Below, in pieces: positions 16,629 to 24,291 of a DNA stretch of 64,000 nt. Under the pieces are notes generated by a model, which was not told the DNA's origin, searched no databases, and was given only the letters and a program-made list of their open reading frames with translations. Source of the DNA: Actinomycetota bacterium (lineage in GTDB: Bacteria; Actinomycetota; UBA4738; HRBIN12); the NCBI GenBank assembly GCA_035697485.1, contig DASSCU010000011.1, forward strand, positions 1 to 64,000, given 5' to 3'. Positions within the stretch are counted from its first letter, which is position 1, and the number at the start of each line of letters is the position of its first letter. The position numbers were made by a program, and so were the translations under genes.

Positions 16629-16662
16629 GCCCCGAGCTCAGGCCCCGGAGCTCAGGCCCCGG
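16629..16662. repeat. Short tandem repeat between convergent genes
   Basis: Two and a half copies of a 13-14 bp unit (GCCCCGAGCTCAG, then GCCCCGGAGCTCAG, then GCCCCGG). The unit contains the palindrome GAGCTC, so GAGCTC copies at 16621, 16634 and 16648 could pair as weak hairpins between leuS and the convergent gene. No T-tract follows, so a terminator is not claimed. Confidence 0.5.
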
Positions 16663-17782
16663 CGACCGTGACCCGCAGGCGGTGTACGGCGTTGTTCGCG
16701 TACCCACCGAGGTTCGGCTCGGCGTGGAGCGGCTGGCACGCGCCCGACGCATCCGTCGCCCGGCATGCGAGCTCATGGATTCCCGGGGTCGCGTTCCAGT
16801 CGAAGGTCCAGCGCTGCCACGCGTGCCGAGCAGGAGCCGGCTCGAGGACCGCCTCCGCCCACGTGCGGAGTCCGTCGACGCTGACCTCGACGCGTTCGAT
16901 CGAGGCCGAACCGGACCATGCCCGTCCCTCGAGCGTCGTGGGTCCGGCTCCCAACACGCGGTCGCGTTCGGGGAACGTCGGCACGCCGGGCGGGACCATC
17001 AGCGATCTCACGCGGATGCGTGACAGAGGCTCGCCGGCGTCGTCGGGGTCGTTCCGGAGCCGGTAGGACACGAGGTTCTGGTAGCCGCCGAACTGTTCGG
17101 GGAGCGCCGTGATCCGGTCAAGCCACTTCACGTGCGTCATGCCGTACCAGCCGGGCACGACGAGCCGTGCGGGTGCCCCGTGCTGGGGAAGCAGTGGCCG
17201 TCCGTTCATCTCGTAGGCGATCATGACGTCGTCGCGCATCGCCTCGGCGAGCGGAAGGCCGCGCTCGTACGCCTGCTCCTCGCCCCCTTCGATGCCCCGG
17301 TCGAGTCCGGCGAACGCGATATCGACGGTGTCCGCCGGGACCCCGGCTTCCTGCAGGAGTGGTGCGAGCGGTGTCCCCGTCCACTCGGCGGTGCCCACTG
17401 CCTCGAGCAGCCATGGCTGGCTCGGCGGGCGTTCCTCGAACATCGCGCGGCCGTTCCCTGCGCATTCCAACGTGACCGGCGCGGTGACGCGCGGACGCTC
17501 GCGGAGGGCGTCGATGCTGAGACGTCGCGGTTGCTCGAACCCATCGAGGGTGAGCGACCATCCGGCAGCGTCGACGAGCGGCATGTCGTAGTGGATCAGC
17601 AGGTAGTGGAGGCCGGCGGGCGTGATGTCGGACCGGAGCGCCTCGAGCGGCAGGCCGTGGTTCCTCGCCGCCTGGGCGAGCTCGTCCAAGCCGATGCCAT
17701 CGTCGCGGTGTCGCTGCATCGGCTGATGCAACCACGTTCCGTGCCCGAAGGCGAACCGCCGCACAGCCGTGACGCGCGTCAC
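16652..17782 (-). CDS. Sulfite oxidase-like molybdopterin oxidoreductase
   Basis: Member of the sulfite oxidase/nitrate reductase Mo-cofactor family, 376 residues. The Mo-ligand cysteine is C107 in VTLECAGNGR. The pocket sequence HGAPARLVVPGWYGMTHVKWLDRI is characteristic. The C-terminal Ig-like dimerisation domain runs from about residue 260, with VEVSVDGLRTWAEA and the terminal HELACRATD region. There is no haem domain, signal peptide or Tat motif, so it is probably a cytoplasmic or unpaired sulfite dehydrogenase-like enzyme; electron acceptor and substrate are unknown. GTG start. It is divergent from comEA with only 35 bp between them, so the two promoters overlap. Confidence 0.85.
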   Translation of the reverse strand: MTRVTAVRRFAFGHGTWLHQPMQRHRDDGIGLDELAQAARNHGLPLEALRSDITPAGLHYLLIHYDMPLVDAAGWSLTLDGFEQPRRLSIDALRERPRVTAPVTLECAGNGRAMFEERPPSQPWLLEAVGTAEWTGTPLAPLLQEAGVPADTVDIAFAGLDRGIEGGEEQAYERGLPLAEAMRDDVMIAYEMNGRPLLPQHGAPARLVVPGWYGMTHVKWLDRITALPEQFGGYQNLVSYRLRNDPDDAGEPLSRIRVRSLMVPPGVPTFPERDRVLGAGPTTLEGRAWSGSASIERVEVSVDGLRTWAEAVLEPAPARHAWQRWTFDWNATPGIHELACRATDASGACQPLHAEPNLGGYANNAVHRLRVTVAGA

Positions 17783-17817: not shown

Positions 17818-18462
17818 ATGAGCGTCAGGGATCGGCTCGACACGTTGTCTCGGGGGGAGCTCGTCGGTCTGGTCGTGGTGGTCGTCATCACGATGGCGGG
17901 CGCCGGCCTGTGGTACGTGCGATCGCTCCCGAGGCCCGTGACGATCGCGGTCGACGCGCTGGCGTCGATGGCCCCCGCCGCGCCCGCCGATGCGCCCGCC
18001 GATGCGACTGCGGTCGCGTCGCCGACCGGACCGCCGATCATCGTCGACGTCACCGGTTGGGTGCACGAGCCGGGTGTCTACGAGTTCGCCCAGGGCGACC
18101 GCGTGGTCGACGCCGTCGACCGCGCCGGTGGGGCAAGGAAGGGCGCCGACCTCTCGGTGCTGAACCTGGCGGCCCCGCTGACCGACGGCACCCAGGTCGT
18201 CGTCCCGAAGCAGGGGGCCGCTGACCCCGGCACGGTGGCGCCGGCCGGCGCCGGCTCCGTTTCGAGCGGCGGCCTGATCAACATCAACACTGCGAGCGCG
18301 ACGGAGTTCGAGACCCTCTCCGGCATCGGCGAGGTGCTCGCCGGCGCGATCGTCGACTACCGCACGGAGAACGGCCCGTTCGCCTCGGTCGACGACCTCG
18401 AGAACGTGAGCGGCATCGGCCCGGCGACCCTTGAGGAGATCCGAGACCAGGTCACGGTATGA
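17818..18462 (+). CDS. comEA: Competence protein ComEA (DNA receptor)
   Basis: Membrane-anchored DNA-binding protein of 214 residues that delivers double-stranded DNA to the ComEC channel. A single N-terminal helix (about 15-36) anchors it. An Ala/Pro linker leads to an SLBB domain (about 73-130, IIVDVTGWVHEPGVYEF). The C-terminal helix-hairpin-helix pair follows (about 150-214): INTASATEFETLSGIGEVLA and the second hairpin NVSGIGPATLEEI. The domain order is standard for Gram-positive ComEA. It overlaps comEC by 4 bp (ATGA), giving a translationally coupled pair. Presence of both genes suggests some DNA-uptake capacity, though no pilus genes are in view. Confidence 0.95.
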   Translation: MSVRDRLDTLSRGELVGLVVVVVITMAGAGLWYVRSLPRPVTIAVDALASMAPAAPADAPADATAVASPTGPPIIVDVTGWVHEPGVYEFAQGDRVVDAVDRAGGARKGADLSVLNLAAPLTDGTQVVVPKQGAADPGTVAPAGAGSVSSGGLININTASATEFETLSGIGEVLAGAIVDYRTENGPFASVDDLENVSGIGPATLEEIRDQVTV

Positions 18463-20870
18463 GCGCCTGGCTGCTCCCGGCCGCGACCACGGCCTGGTGG
18501 GCGGGGCTCCTCATCGGATTCGGTCCCGCGCGGTCATGGATCGTGTGGGCGCCCGGCGTACTCGGCCTGGCCGCGTTGGTCTCGGCCGTGATCGCCGCGC
18601 CCGTCACCCGCGGACGGGATCCGGTGGCTGAGGCCGGGCTCGTCCCGGCCGAACGCCGTCCCGTGGCGTCGGTCGAACGTGTGGCGGCCCCCAGGCGCAG
18701 CCCCGGCGCCCCTGTCGCCGCGGTGACCCTCCTGGTCTGCACCGGCGTCTGTGCCCTGGGTGTCTGCTGGGCCCTGCTCGCTCTGCGGCGGCTGGCATCT
18801 TCGCCGCTCGCGGCACGGGCGCCCGACCGGGTCGAGGTCGACGCCACGCTCCGGGAGGATCCGCGCCCCGGCGCGCTCGGATGGCACGCGCTCGCCGATG
18901 TCCGCCTCCTGCGCACGGCCGACGGCACGGTGAGCGCGCTCCGCGAGACGATCTGGCTCTCCGGCGACGAGGATCCGCCCGCGGCCGCCCGCGGCGACCT
19001 CGTCCGGGCCGACGGTTCGCTCCAGGTGCCCGACGACCCGGGGTTCCTCGACGCGATCCACGCCAAGGGCGTCGCGGTCACGCTGCGTGCGTCGCAGGTC
19101 GAGCGGCTCGAGGGTTCCCCGAACCCGTTCGTTCGAGCGACCCAGGCCGTGCGGTCGACGATGGCACGGTCGATCGAGGCGGTGTTCCCCGCCCGGGAAG
19201 CCGGGTTGCTCATGGGCCTCGCGCTCGGCGACGACTCGCACGTCGACGCGGGCGTCGAGCGCGACTTCAAGGCAACCGGGCTCACGCACCTGCTCGTCGT
19301 CTCCGGCGGCAACGTGGCGATGGTGCTCGGCCCGATCCTCGCGCTCGTGACGATGCTGGGGCTGCCCAGGGCCGCCCAGGTGTCGGTCGGGCTCGCGACG
19401 GTCGCGTTCATCGTCGTGCTCACCGGCGCGGAGCCGTCGGTGATGCGTGCCGGCGCGATGTCCGCGCTCACCCTCGTCGGTCTGCTCCTCGGCCGCGCCC
19501 GTTCGACCGCGGTCGTGCTCTCGGGCGCGGTGCTCGTGCTGCTGATCCTGCAGCCGGTGCTGGTTCGATCGATCGGCTTCCAGCTCTCCGTCACGGCGAC
19601 CGCCGGCATGGTGGCGATGGCCGGCCCGCTGGGCGAGCGGTTCGCCCGCGTGATGCCTGCGCCCGTCGCGGCGGCGGCGGGCACGACGCTCGCCGCCCAG
19701 CTCGGTGTGACGCCCGTGTTGCTGTACCACTTCCACGATGTGCCGGGTGTGACCCTGCTCGCGAACGTGGTCGCCGCGCCGACCGTGGCGCCGTCGCTGC
19801 TGCTCGGGCTCGTGGCGGCCGGGCTGGGCATCGTCTCGGAGCCGATCGGTCACCTCGTCGGGCTCGCCGCCCAGGCGCCGATGCGAGCCCTGCAGCTGAT
19901 CGCGAACGTCGCGGGGCGGGCTCCTGTCGCGCACATCACTTCGAACGGAGGCCCAGCCGTGCTGGTCCTCGGTGCCGGTCTCGTCGTCGCGGTCACGGCG
20001 GCGCTGCACTCGGGGTGGCGCCCGCCCCGCCGTGCGGTCATCGTCGGCGTGCTCCTCGTGCCGCTGCTTGTGTGGAACTCGGCGGCCTCGGTCGGACCGC
20101 CCGATGCGCTCACCGTGCGGTTCCTCGACGTCGGGCAGGGCGACGCGGCGCTCGTCACGACCCCGGCCGGCATGACGATGCTCGTCGATGGCGGCCCCGA
20201 CGAGGAGCAGACCGCCACCGAGCTCGCCGCGCTCGGCGTGAAGCGGATCGACGTCGTCGTCGCGAGTCACCCGCACGCCGATCACGTGGTCGGCCTGCCC
20301 GCGGTGCTGGCTCGGTTCCAGGTCGGTGTGGTGCTGCAGCCGGGGTGTCCGTCGACGTCGGCGCTGCAGGTCGAGGTCGACCGGGCGATCGCCGACGAGG
20401 GGATCGAGGCGCGCACGCCCTGGGCGGGTGACTCCTTCGTCGTGGGCGACGTGCGGCTCGACGTGTTGTCGCCGCACGAGTGCTACACGGGCACCGAGTC
20501 CGACACGAACAACGACGCGCTCGTGATCAGGCTCACCCACGGCGCGGACTCGGTGCTCTTCGCGACCGAACCCGAGGAGCCCGCCCAGGAGTGGCTCCTC
20601 GAGCAGCGCGACCAGGTGGGTCTCGACCTGCACGCCGACGTGCTGAAGGTGCCCCACCACGGCGCGGCCACATCGGTCGCGGAGTTCTTCGAGGCCGTGG
20701 CGGCGCCGGTGGCCGTGGTGAGCGTGGGCGAGAACACCTACGGTCATCCCGTTCAGGCCACGCTCGATGCGATCACCACCACCGGGGCCCAGGTCTGGAG
20801 GACCGACCAACACGGAACGGTCACCATCACCTTCCAGGGTGGCGTGCCCGCCGTCGTCGCCGACCGCTGA
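18459..20870 (+). CDS. comEC: ComEC/Rec2 DNA-uptake channel with metallo-beta-lactamase domain
   Basis: Inner-membrane channel for uptake of single-stranded DNA, 803 residues. Several N-terminal helices and a DUF4131-like region precede the Competence domain with VVSGGNVAMVL and LTGAEPSVMRAGAMS (about 285-340). The C-terminal metallo-beta-lactamase domain starts at VRFLDVGQGDAALVTTP, followed by the metal motif SHPHADHVVGLPAVL and NNDALVIRL, and probably degrades the non-transported strand. The end, YGHPVQATLDAI to VWRTDQHGTV, is the normal family terminus. A diverged second copy of this last segment lies 1.8 kb downstream just before holA. Coupled to comEA. Confidence 0.95.
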   Translation: MSAWLLPAATTAWWAGLLIGFGPARSWIVWAPGVLGLAALVSAVIAAPVTRGRDPVAEAGLVPAERRPVASVERVAAPRRSPGAPVAAVTLLVCTGVCALGVCWALLALRRLASSPLAARAPDRVEVDATLREDPRPGALGWHALADVRLLRTADGTVSALRETIWLSGDEDPPAAARGDLVRADGSLQVPDDPGFLDAIHAKGVAVTLRASQVERLEGSPNPFVRATQAVRSTMARSIEAVFPAREAGLLMGLALGDDSHVDAGVERDFKATGLTHLLVVSGGNVAMVLGPILALVTMLGLPRAAQVSVGLATVAFIVVLTGAEPSVMRAGAMSALTLVGLLLGRARSTAVVLSGAVLVLLILQPVLVRSIGFQLSVTATAGMVAMAGPLGERFARVMPAPVAAAAGTTLAAQLGVTPVLLYHFHDVPGVTLLANVVAAPTVAPSLLLGLVAAGLGIVSEPIGHLVGLAAQAPMRALQLIANVAGRAPVAHITSNGGPAVLVLGAGLVVAVTAALHSGWRPPRRAVIVGVLLVPLLVWNSAASVGPPDALTVRFLDVGQGDAALVTTPAGMTMLVDGGPDEEQTATELAALGVKRIDVVVASHPHADHVVGLPAVLARFQVGVVLQPGCPSTSALQVEVDRAIADEGIEARTPWAGDSFVVGDVRLDVLSPHECYTGTESDTNNDALVIRLTHGADSVLFATEPEEPAQEWLLEQRDQVGLDLHADVLKVPHHGAATSVAEFFEAVAAPVAVVSVGENTYGHPVQATLDAITTTGAQVWRTDQHGTVTITFQGGVPAVVADR

Positions 20871-20886
20871 CGATGTTGGTTGGCTC

Positions 20887-20892
20887 TATGAT
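20887..20892 (+). promoter_or_regulatory. -10 hexamer TATGAT before the 20898 gene
   Basis: TATGAT lies 5 nt before GTG 20898, again a leaderless arrangement. Confidence 0.5.
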
Positions 20893-20897
20893 GAGTC

Positions 20898-21581
20898 GTG
20901 ACCTCCGAGCTTCGCGTGCTCGTCGAACAGCCAACGAGGGGCAAGCGCTGGGTCGCCGTTGCGGCGGACTGGCCGGGACTCGAACGGGGCGGCAAGACGG
21001 AGGACCTGGCGGTCGAGAAGCTCGTCGACTACGTCCCGCGGTACCTTCCAGTCGCGAAGCGCGTCCGGCTGGGCTCGCAGCTCACGACCCAGACCAAGCT
21101 TGACATCATCGATCGATACCCGGGGACCGGCTCGACCGATTTCTGGGGCGTCTCGTTCGCGCCTTCGCCGCTGGACCGCCAGGCGTTCGACGCGCCGACG
21201 TTCGACCGCCAGGTGCGGCTGCTCCGCGCGGCGTGGGCCGAGTTCGACGAGACGGCCGCTCGCGTAACGGCAGAGCTCCGGCCGGGTGTCCGGGGCGGCG
21301 GCCGCTCCCGTGACAAGATCATCCGCCACGTCCTGGCGAACGAGGGTGAGGACTTCTCGAGGCGCGTGGATGCCAAGTCCGAGCTGGTGGACCTGCTGAG
21401 GCCGAGCGGACTCGCCAAGCACCGCGACCGCTTCGTTGAGGCGATGCGTGCGCGGTACAAGGAGGGCACGCCACTCGGCAAGTGGACGATCCCGTACCTG
21501 CTTCGACACACGGCGTACCACGTGCTCGACCACACCTGGGAGATGCAGGATCGAGATCTGTCGGACGACGCCACCAGGTGA
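20898..21581 (+). CDS. Hypothetical DinB-like-ended protein
   Basis: Protein of 227 residues that I cannot assign firmly. The N-terminal half is a short alpha/beta region (RVLVEQPTRGKRWVAVAADWPGLERGG). The C-terminal half is helical and ends with YLLRHTAYHVLDHTWEMQDR, whose H-x3-H-x3-H-like histidines resemble the last metal-binding helix of the DinB/YfiT fold. It may be a metal-dependent DinB-superfamily enzyme or a relative that has only the fold (inference). It is the first of three small genes between comEC and a displaced comEC tail, and starts at GTG 20898 with TATGAT just upstream. Confidence 0.65.
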   Translation: MTSELRVLVEQPTRGKRWVAVAADWPGLERGGKTEDLAVEKLVDYVPRYLPVAKRVRLGSQLTTQTKLDIIDRYPGTGSTDFWGVSFAPSPLDRQAFDAPTFDRQVRLLRAAWAEFDETAARVTAELRPGVRGGGRSRDKIIRHVLANEGEDFSRRVDAKSELVDLLRPSGLAKHRDRFVEAMRARYKEGTPLGKWTIPYLLRHTAYHVLDHTWEMQDRDLSDDATR

Positions 21582-21644
21582 CCGCCTCGACGCAGGGACG
21601 GTCGCTGGCGGCTCGAGATACATCCCCGAAACCTCGCGCAACCG

Positions 21645-22148
21645 TCAGCCCTCGGCGTCTGGCGGATCCAACGTGAGCCTGCCGACCGCCTCGCCGTACT
21701 CCCAGACGTCGATGCCGGGTGGCTCCATACCGAACGTCGTGAGCGCCGTACAGATCTGGCTCCGATGGTCGGTGCCGTGGTGCATCGCCTGTGCGAGCCA
21801 GATCCCGACGAAGGTGTGCTCCACCGGCCCGTCGATCGTCGGCGTCGTGAGCGGCAGATCGGGATCCCACCCCTCGGCGAGTTGGCGCTCCCACTCGCGC
21901 CCGTTCGCCTCCGCGATGACGCGAAGGGCTCCGAGGTCGGCGTCATCGTCCGGGCCGTCGTAGTCCCCTTCGGTATCCGCGAGGCGGAACAGGTACCAGC
22001 CGTCGGAGTCGACCACGTGCCGGAGCGTCTCCTGCACGCTGCCGTACATCGCCGGGAAAGGCCGGTGGAGCTGCTCGTCGGTCAGGTCCGCGCAGGCGTC
22101 GAGGACGCGCATCGTCGCCCAGTTGTGATGCCGGATGGCGTCTTCCAC
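21645..22148 (-). CDS. DinB family protein
   Basis: Four-helix-bundle DinB/YfiT superfamily protein of 167 residues. The metal triad is visible: His in RHHNWATMRVL, His in LRHVVDSDGWYL, and His in AMHHGTDHRSQI. Members include thiol transferases (mycothiol- or bacillithiol-dependent) and many unknowns. I choose GTG 22148 instead of the TTG further upstream because TAGGCT lies 8 nt before it, which fits the leaderless pattern, and because the family usually begins right at the first helix. It is convergent with the 20898 gene and divergent from the VOC gene, inside the segment flanked by two comEC ends. Confidence 0.82.
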   Translation of the reverse strand: MEDAIRHHNWATMRVLDACADLTDEQLHRPFPAMYGSVQETLRHVVDSDGWYLFRLADTEGDYDGPDDDADLGALRVIAEANGREWERQLAEGWDPDLPLTTPTIDGPVEHTFVGIWLAQAMHHGTDHRSQICTALTTFGMEPPGIDVWEYGEAVGRLTLDPPDAEG

Positions 22149-22156
22149 GAGAACCA

Positions 22157-22162
22157 AGCCTA
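22157..22162 (-). promoter_or_regulatory. -10 hexamer TAGGCT, leaderless DinB gene
   Basis: On the minus strand TAGGCT ends 8 nt before GTG 22148 and overlaps the alternative upstream TTG start, which argues against that start. Confidence 0.5.
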
Positions 22163-22189
22163 CGACTCCTCCCCTGCAAGAATGGCCGC

Positions 22190-22627
22190 ATGGCGCTTCA
22201 ACGGATGGACAACGTCGGCATCGTGGTGGAATCGCTCGATGCTGCGATCTCGTTCTTCGCCGAGTTGGGCCTCGAACTCGAGGGTCGAGACATGATCGAG
22301 GGAGACTGGTCAGGGCGCGTCACCGGACTGCGCGACCAGCGCGTCGAGGTCGCCATGATGCGCACGCCGGACGGCCACGGCCGGATCGAACTCTCGCGAT
22401 TCGTCGCGCCGCCTGTGGTCGCCGATCACCGGAACGCCCCGGTGAACGCTCTGGGCTACCTGCGTGTCATGTTCGCGGTGGACGACCTCGACGATACGCT
22501 CGCCCGGCTCCGCGACCACGGCGCGCAGGTCGTCGACGAAGTGGTCCAGTACGAAGAGGTGTATCGGCTCTGCTACGTCCGAGGCCCCGAGGGCATCCTC
22601 ATCGGACTGGCCGAGCAGATCGGCTGA
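22190..22627 (+). CDS. VOC family (glyoxalase/bleomycin-resistance fold) protein
   Basis: Vicinal-oxygen-chelate protein of 145 residues with two beta-alpha-beta3 repeats. The first is MDNVGIVVESLDAAISFFAELGLELEGR (about 6-33). The second starts at LRVMFAVDDLDDTLARLRDHG (about 90-110) and ends with YVRGPEGILIGLAEQIG. Metal ligands are plausible: the acidic residue in RIELSRF and the Glu-type position near the C-terminus. Members include glyoxalase I, dioxygenases and antibiotic-binding proteins; the substrate is unknown. The comEC remnant follows within about 30 bp. Confidence 0.85.
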   Translation: MALQRMDNVGIVVESLDAAISFFAELGLELEGRDMIEGDWSGRVTGLRDQRVEVAMMRTPDGHGRIELSRFVAPPVVADHRNAPVNALGYLRVMFAVDDLDDTLARLRDHGAQVVDEVVQYEEVYRLCYVRGPEGILIGLAEQIG

Positions 22628-22654
22628 CGCCGACACGCGCTCAGGTGACATCGC

Positions 22655-22792
22655 CGAACGCTGGGGCACCCGACCGCGTTCACGCTCGACGCCCTCGCCG
22701 CCGCGGGGTCGACGGTCTGGCGCACCGACCGCAGCGGCACGGTCACCGTGACGTTCGTCGACGGGGTGGCGGTCGTCTCTGGCGAGCGCTGA
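22655..22792 (+). pseudogene. Diverged 3' remnant of a second comEC
   Basis: From about 22658 the frame reads TLGHPTAFTLDAL, a short Ala/Gly stretch, VWRTDRSGTVTVTF and VSGER, then TGA at 22790-22792. This aligns along about 44 residues with the terminus of the intact ComEC upstream (TYGHPVQATLDAI, VWRTDQHGTVTITF, VVADR), with a little over half the residues identical. In-frame TGA lies at 22646-22648, so no longer protein is possible. It sits exactly where the comEC 3' end should lie, 49 bp before holA. The simplest reading is that a segment carrying its own comEC end plus three genes entered next to the resident comEC tail, leaving this stub. Confidence 0.82.
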
Positions 22793-22828: not shown

Positions 22829-22834
22829 TACCAT
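22829..22834 (+). promoter_or_regulatory. -10 hexamer TACCAT, leaderless holA
   Basis: TACCAT lies 7 nt before ATG 22842, within the short gap after the comEC remnant. Confidence 0.55.
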
Positions 22835-22841
22835 CCGAGCC

Positions 22842-23780
22842 ATGGCCAGCCGTTCCCGTGCTCCGATCGCGCTGCTGTGGGGCGAGGACGACTTCCTGCT
22901 GCGCGAGGCGGCGCTCGCCCGGTTCGGCGAGGTGCGCCCGGGCGAGGTCGACGCGGGGGAGTGGCAGGGCGGGGAGCTGCAGGACCTCGCCACCCCCTCG
23001 CTGTTCGGTGAGCCGAGGGCACTGTTGATCTCCGACGCGCGCTCCCTCACGAAGGATGCGACCGCGGAGCTCGCTGCCTACCTCGACGCTCCCGACCCCG
23101 ACGCACAGCTCGTGATCTGTTGTCGGGTGGCCGATCGCGGCAAGGTACCCGCCGCCCTCGACAAGCTCGTGAAGCCCGTCGGCGACGTGGTACACGTCGA
23201 GATCAAGCGGAAGGACCTCGAGCCCTGGCTCACCCGCCGGGCCGACACCCTCGGCCTCGACCTCTCGGTCCCGGCCGCTCGCGCGCTGGTCGAGATCCTC
23301 GGAGAAGAGCCCGGCCAGCTCGTCGCCGCCCTGGCTCAGCTCGAGTCGGCATTCCCGGCCCAGCGGATCACCCCCGCTCTGGTGGCTCGCCAGTTCCGGG
23401 GGCTCGGCGAGCAGAAGGTCTGGGACCTGTGCGACCGCGCGTTCTCACGCGACCTTCCGGGCGCGATCCGCTCGTGGCGTTCGATCGAGGAGGGCGGCGA
23501 CGACCCGCTCAAGGTGCTCGGCGGCGTCTCGAGCCGTCTGCGTGACCTGATCCGCGTGCGCTCGCTGCCCGATCGCATGCCGCCCGCCGAGCTCGCCAAG
23601 CGCGCCGGCCTGCGGTTCGACTGGCAGGCCCGCCGCTACCAGCAGCAGGCGCGGAACTTCTCGATGGCCCAGCTGCTGCGTGTGCACGAGCGCATCACCG
23701 AGACCGATCGCGCCTTGAAGTCGGGTGCCTCCGGCGACACCGTGATGCCCGCGCTCGTGGTCGCGATCGCCGCCGGGTGA
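22842..23780 (+). CDS. holA: DNA polymerase III subunit delta
   Basis: Clamp-loader delta subunit of 312 residues, which opens the beta sliding clamp. The N-terminal AAA+-like domain begins LLWGEDDFLLREAALARF and includes FGEPRALLISDARSL. The degenerate nucleotide site (no Walker A) is normal for delta. The middle region EILGEEPGQLVAALAQLE and the C-terminal collar (RFDWQARRYQQQARNFSMAQLL) complete the usual architecture. It follows comEC in many bacteria, and here follows a comEC remnant. It converges with a hypothetical gene, the stops separated by a single base. Confidence 0.93.
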   Translation: MASRSRAPIALLWGEDDFLLREAALARFGEVRPGEVDAGEWQGGELQDLATPSLFGEPRALLISDARSLTKDATAELAAYLDAPDPDAQLVICCRVADRGKVPAALDKLVKPVGDVVHVEIKRKDLEPWLTRRADTLGLDLSVPAARALVEILGEEPGQLVAALAQLESAFPAQRITPALVARQFRGLGEQKVWDLCDRAFSRDLPGAIRSWRSIEEGGDDPLKVLGGVSSRLRDLIRVRSLPDRMPPAELAKRAGLRFDWQARRYQQQARNFSMAQLLRVHERITETDRALKSGASGDTVMPALVVAIAAG

Positions 23781-23781
23781 C

Positions 23782-24291
23782 TCACCGCTCCCCGCACGCG
23801 ATCGAGCTCTCGACGAAGACGGTTGGCCAGTCCGGCCGGTCGACGTCGGTCCCCCGGGCGACCTCGACGCGGCGCCAGGCCCAGCGCCCCGCGTAGTCGA
23901 GCTCGGCGGTCCACCTGACCGCCGGGAACGGTCCCGGGCGCACGACGTCGCGGTCGCCCGGCAGGGCCGAGTACCCCTGCACCTCGAAGGCCTCGATCAC
24001 GTCCTTCCTCGGCGCCGTCGTGCCGAACGTCGTCCGATGGGTCGGGCAGCACCCAGCGGGGTCGCAGTAGGGGCGGGCGGTGGAGACGCGCGGCCGGCCC
24101 AGCACCGCCGTCATGAAGTCCCGCTGGGCCGCGGGGGTGCCTGGCACGAGCGGAGCGAGCGAGGCGGGAGAGGGTCCCGAGCCGCGCGGTGCCGGCTCGG
24201 CGATCATGGTCAGCCCGACGAACACGGCCACGGCGACGCCGGCCATCGAGAGGTAGGCGCCGAGCGGGGAACGACCGGGTGAGGCCGCCAT
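23782..24291 (-). CDS. Hypothetical membrane-anchored protein
   Basis: Unrecognised 169-residue protein. One helix at about residues 12-31 (YLSMAGVAVAVFVGLTMIA) acts as an anchor or uncleaved signal. The outer part contains a CDPAGCCPTH block with three clustered cysteines and ends with ESSIACGER. Trp/Arg-rich strands (WTAELDYAGRWAWRRVEVA) suggest a small beta domain. The start ATG 24291 has TAGGCT 6 nt upstream on the minus strand. It lies between holA (convergent) and rpsT (same strand) in an otherwise conserved neighbourhood, and its function is unknown. Confidence 0.65.
   Translation of the reverse strand: MAASPGRSPLGAYLSMAGVAVAVFVGLTMIAEPAPRGSGPSPASLAPLVPGTPAAQRDFMTAVLGRPRVSTARPYCDPAGCCPTHRTTFGTTAPRKDVIEAFEVQGYSALPGDRDVVRPGPFPAVRWTAELDYAGRWAWRRVEVARGTDVDRPDWPTVFVESSIACGER

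Follow-up and report, generated by a model that had tools for sequence, protein, structure and literature searches.

A comEC gene of foreign affinity and a comEC remnant before holA in an Actinomycetota bacterium: a probable replacement in place

The window considered here, a stretch of 64,000 nucleotides on a 145 kb contig of a 3.4 Mb genome assembled in 64 contigs, carries in this order leuS, comEA, an intact comEC, three small genes, a short comEC 3' stub and holA (Table 1). It was compared with a set of 27 genomes from a small class of Actinomycetota. On either side of the insert the order of neighbours is kept as in the relatives, leuS-comEA-comEC upstream and holA-lepA-hemW downstream, and comEC and holA are adjacent, sometimes overlapping, wherever both were found in another genome of family f1, genus g4 excepted. 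This adjacency is therefore taken as the ancestral order and the three genes as its interruption. An earlier note on this DNA had already named holA as the normal neighbour of comEC, with the stub directly before it, and had counted three small genes between two comEC ends; both descriptions hold, the first with the exception of g4, and the genes encode a 227-aa protein, a DinB family protein and a glyoxalase/VOC family protein. The intact gene scores 208.9 bits against TIGR00361 ComEC_Rec2 (cut-off 190). Two observations concern the wider surroundings. The interval between leuS and comEA, whose length also varies among relatives, contains a molybdopterin oxidoreductase gene on the opposite strand (16652-17782), and holA is followed on the minus strand by a 169-aa open reading frame (23782-24291) that matches no Pfam or NCBIfam family and is missing from those of the relatives' loci that were searched.

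Table 1. Features of the comEA-comEC-holA locus; positions are those of the window unless a contig label is given.
Feature	Position	Strand	Remarks
comEA	17818..18462	+	Pfam SLBB/HHH; overlaps comEC; tree and AU test
Intact comEC, proposed incoming (xenologous) copy	18459..20870	+	803 aa; Pfam Competence E 2e-47; groups with G008
3' end of intact comEC, counterpart of the stub	20727..20870	+	Alignment with the stub
TATGAT, -10-like element	20887..20892	+	5 nt before GTG of gene 1; G021 homology starts here
Inserted gene 1, 227 aa	20898..21581	+	No Pfam/NCBIfam/PDB match
Inserted gene 2, DinB family protein	21645..22157	-	Family match
Inserted gene 3, glyoxalase/VOC family protein	22190..22627	+	Family match
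comEC 3' stub, proposed remnant of native comEC	22656..22792	+	44 codons from 22658, stop 22790-22792; groups with G007
TACCAT, probable -10 element of holA	22829..22834	+	7 nt before ATG; conserved in relatives
holA, usual downstream neighbour of comEC	22842..23780	+	TIGR01128 147 bits
comEC 3' stubs before holA in genus g4	L062:6155-6290, L061:1522-1665 (G004, G014)		One with a frameshift, one with an in-frame stop

The stub, an in-frame fragment at 22658-22792 that reads TLGHPTAFTLDALAAAGSTVWRTDRSGTVTVTFVDGVAVVSGER-stop, shares 24 of its 44 residues with the end of the intact ComEC, and the alignment scores 129, whereas 1000 shuffles gave at most 50. At the DNA level the two tails are about 69% identical over 112 nt. 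The earlier note had described a 44-residue comEC C-terminal fragment here and proposed aligning the two comEC ends; its description was right down to the coordinates, and the similarity lies far above the chance level. An independent search of the genome for comEC gave two matches only, the intact gene and, in second place (E 9.8e-9), the stub. Because no ATG, GTG or TTG start stands ahead of its GHP motif, we regard the stub as a remnant and not as a gene. From about 22656 onward (GAAC; 2 nt are deleted at the very edge) the DNA is homologous to comEC, and the 30, 60 or 90 nt lying 5' of the stub resemble comEC no better than shuffled sequence does (p 0.19, 0.08 and 0.19, respectively).

There is no stop codon inside the stub, and over 33 codons it differs from the comEC of G007 at 5, 5 and 15 first, second and third codon positions, the corresponding counts for a reference pair of intact genes (G005-G006) being 8, 3 and 20. 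Since the differences fall mostly at third positions, as they do between intact genes, the stub was coding and belonged to a working comEC until recently, relative to its split from G007. This coding history is a strong argument against an old duplication left drifting. Duplication of the gene's own 3' end, through repair with template switching or in tandem, followed by divergence, would indeed give similar tail pairs within one genus, and such pairs, with about 84-88% DNA identity, are present within each of the two g4 genomes, G004 and G014. However, the two G004 tails differ at 1, 2 and 12 first, second and third codon positions, mainly third ones, so that both must have diverged under coding constraint. 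In the window, moreover, barely more than half of the residues agree between the tails, the stub is closer to the comEC of another genus than to that of its own genome, and it is nearly undecayed and so cannot be both old and unconstrained. We thus consider duplication very unlikely.

Trees were built for leuS, lepA, hemW and holA, singly and concatenated, and for comEA and comEC, with the stub as a row of its own; the AU test was used for the grouping of comEA. The earlier note had called for the phylogeny of the main comEC to be compared with that of the stub, and the two indeed part. Residues 1-757 of the intact protein group with G008 at a support of 100/98, and the same pairing is recovered from its parts separately (N-terminal part 94/99, Competence part 94/94, metallo-beta-lactamase part 86/60). 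Holding the window in the comEC tree with G007 costs 24 lnL (p=0.040), with G002 77 lnL (p=0.002) and with G004/G014 82 lnL (p=0.0001). The stub, of which 42 residues entered the tree, groups with G007 at 97/93; it is short, and holding it with the body of the window's intact comEC is not rejected (p=0.20). As for the neighbours, the concatenated leuS, lepA, hemW and holA reject the pairing of the window with G008 (p=0.016), as do leuS (p=0.0027), lepA (p=0.0098) and comEA (p=0.020) singly, while the same pairing is borderline in hemW (p=0.054) and not rejected in holA (p=0.127). ComEA groups the window with G007 weakly (71/58), the HolA tree gives the window no special affinity to G007, and the flanking genes neither support nor reject the window and G007 as a species pairing (p=0.40). 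These trees thus give one affinity for the intact comEC and another common to the stub and, weakly, to comEA, which bracket it.

We consider it probable, though well short of certain, that comEC was replaced in place by a xenologous copy and that the 3' end of the native gene was left behind as a footprint. Three traits of xenologous displacement are found here, namely, a conflict between the gene tree and those of the neighbours, retention of the native locus and gene order, and loss of the native copy. The likeness to displacement in situ and to mosaic operons (Omelchenko et al., 2003, Genome Biol 4:R55, as cited in PMC1274311) lies in a foreign homologue that sits at the same conserved place and whose tree conflicts with those of its neighbours. 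What sets the window apart is that part of the displaced gene is still physically there, separated from the new copy by unrelated genes. To our knowledge, trees are usually the only basis on which displacement of this kind, and the replacement of core genes in general, is inferred; in the window the old gene's discarded end survives and can itself be placed on the tree. The process is a known one in evolution, of which the comEC of the window is a well-preserved case and not a new system, and the case leaves the understanding of any system unchanged. With comEC as the gene of the DNA-uptake channel, and with a disturbance of the same interval in another genus, the locus is a convenient one for studying how foreign copies enter conserved operons.

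We infer the direction of transfer, the order of events and the mechanism of recombination as follows. A donor comEC from a lineage related to G008 would have entered the comEA-comEC-holA locus and supplanted the native, G007-like comEC. Since even the N-terminus of comEC shares the grouping with G008 found for the gene as a whole, the left joint would be placed close to the comEC start. On the right, the joint would be non-homologous, or else the edge of a later deletion inside the native gene, about 44 codons before its stop, so that the native 3' end was kept next to holA and its promoter. A single step might have sufficed, with recombination homologous on the left and illegitimate on the right, or insertion beside the old gene might have been followed by deletion of most of it. 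The three small genes, which lie between the new comEC and the stub, may have come with the donor comEC or one by one. One-step events of the former kind are known as homology-facilitated illegitimate recombination, reported in three naturally competent species and E. coli (PMC3240628), in which a homologous joint on one side and a non-homologous one on the other would leave a foreign comEC and adjoining DNA joined to a truncated native gene; the proposed joints of the window differ in being read from the end state, the left one from trees and the right one from the abrupt edge of the stub.

Replacement with a footprint in a core locus is also what the earlier note had proposed. That part is strengthened by a comEC phylogeny that differs from those of the flanks and the stub, while the donor has to be moved further away and the three genes considered separately. 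A donor strain had been envisaged; the nearest comEC to that of the window is that of G008, at 62% identity, which puts the distance at that of a genus and makes G008 itself too distant to be the actual donor. Nor is homologous recombination, as invoked there, evident on the right side, where the stub begins abruptly without upstream homology and resembles an illegitimate joint or a deletion edge.

The data are also compatible with a transfer in the opposite direction, into G008. Let us assume, then, that the intact comEC is native, that its affinity to G008 arose by such a transfer and that a G007-like donor supplied the stub, and perhaps the inserted genes with it. G008 is on a long branch in the flanking-gene trees, and topology alone gives no direction. 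Yet comEA, upstream of the intact gene, is also weakly G007-affine, and the stub stands in the native position before holA and its promoter, although HolA has no special affinity to G007, so that a cross-over would have been needed exactly between the stub and holA. On balance, a G007-like donor of the stub seems unlikely to us.

The three inserted genes bear on how many arrivals replacement would have involved. Gene 1 is 84% identical at the amino acid level to a gene in G021, of family f4, whereas the HolA proteins of the same two genomes are only 49% identical; the DNA match (window 20887-21571, L105:9177-9862; 86%) is almost confined to the gene and its -10 element, which points to a recent single-gene transfer between families. 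The best relatives of gene 2, about 50% identical, are at other loci. Gene 3 is 79% identical to a gene in G018, of family f3, and again the match is gene-sized (22178-22632). Class-wide searches found each of the three apart from comEC, and in no relative was any of them tied to the comEC locus; a donor carrying comEC beside the three genes, considered as a candidate source, was rejected on this ground. The earlier note had brought them in with the donor's segment. With closest relatives that are separate, two of them in other families and none beside comEC, they look instead like individually acquired accessory genes and not like one block from the comEC donor, at least as far as their sequence affinities tell, and these separate affinities favour several arrival steps over joint arrival with the donor comEC.

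The same interval is disturbed in another genus. In both g4 genomes a full comEC and a separate comEC 3' end lie on different contigs, the latter directly before holA. The ends of the two G004 contigs are matched at 99% by a single G014 contig, on which about 120 nt separate them; across two assemblies, this suggests that the order in G004 is comEC, about 3.3 kb with a histidine kinase and other DNA, stub and holA; in G014 the 99%-identical segment adjoins other DNA, not comEC. The earlier note had held that a stub in relatives without the three genes would speak against its proposal. Literally, G004 and G014 are such relatives, but their stubs have other DNA upstream and a tail pair of their own, so that they mark a recurrently disturbed interval and do not refute replacement. 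An ancestral insertion common to g4 and the window's genus is disfavoured, the window stub grouping with G007 and the g4 stubs resembling the comEC of g4 itself. The comEC-holA interval has thus been hit more than once, in the window and in two genomes of another genus, at the gene for the DNA-uptake channel. A profile search of 297 genomes in the phylum gave, among the matches listed, a second short comEC tail in no genome but G000, G004 and G014. G001, the sole other genome of the window's genus in the set, has no match to comEC or holA, and neither the native state of that genus before replacement nor the proposed donor arrangement was found in the genomes searched. That two genomes were falsely joined at the comEC-holA stretch is extremely unlikely in our opinion: the assembly is in 64 pieces and the arrangement is known from it alone, but the contig is long, the genes upstream and downstream agree on the part of the family tree to which the window belongs, and the same kind of stub recurs in g4.

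Two further features of g4 were noted. The histidine kinase segment (L156:245-2286, L063:1-2041) is 99% identical between G004 and G014 in different surroundings, as against only 89% for their comEC regions, and presumably reflects either misbinning of a contig or recent transfer. The metallo-beta-lactamase part of g4 comEC (G004 comEC L063:2212-4611, compared with residues 541-757 of the window's) is very divergent and forms a long branch of its own; its identity to the window is about 42%, whereas other f1 genera reach 54-78%.

Mobile elements can integrate into the 3' end of a protein-coding gene and restore the gene, and an intact gene, an insert and a displaced tail are the anatomy of such an integration. 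Perhaps, then, an integrase-borne element, since shrunk to three genes, used the conserved N-x-Y-G-H-P codons of comEC as its attachment site and restored the comEC 3' end while displacing the old one. Stub homology starts at these same codons in the window and in G004, two genera with different cargo, and in G014 at the motif or slightly upstream of it (weak extension, p=0.0125). The window differs, however, in lacking an integrase among its three genes, which comprise a DinB, a VOC and a protein of no family, and in lacking an identical core: the longest identical run between its two tails is about 9 nt, and no run of at least 10 nt was seen. A switch of tail at the GHP motif within the intact comEC, examined by regression of tail against body and by a split-row tree, found no support either; holding the tail with the body costs 0.2 lnL in the tree (p=0.39), and the residual of the tail in the regression is -0.5 SD. 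Furthermore, the foreign affinity extends to the whole of comEC and not just to its tail. A literature search on comEC with integrases and integration sites listed no paper that describes such a site in its title or the opening of its abstract. We hold integration of this kind to be decidedly improbable for the window. A broader proposition, to which we attach only a small likelihood, is that the N-x-Y-G-H-P codons are a recurrent point of recombination or integration in the family, at which unrelated cargo enters repeatedly, the tail is regenerated and the old tail stays before holA; if true, this would make the gene for DNA uptake itself a landing site for incoming DNA.

Lastly, the sequence between the stub and holA has a probable function of its own. 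TANNNT is found 5-10 nt before the start codon upstream of holA in 20 of 21 sequences of relatives and in the window, against a background of 2.2% per window of the same length. Its position suggests a probable leaderless promoter at holA (22829-22845), an arrangement reported for Actinobacteria (PMC3160421, PMC3898074). The presence of the stub need not be explained by selection for it as the holA promoter, since in the window the -10 element lies beyond it. In many relatives the element overlaps the last codons of comEC, so that holA expression should suffer from deletions there, and this may set the right-hand limit of such deletions; in the window, however, the element lies downstream of the stub.
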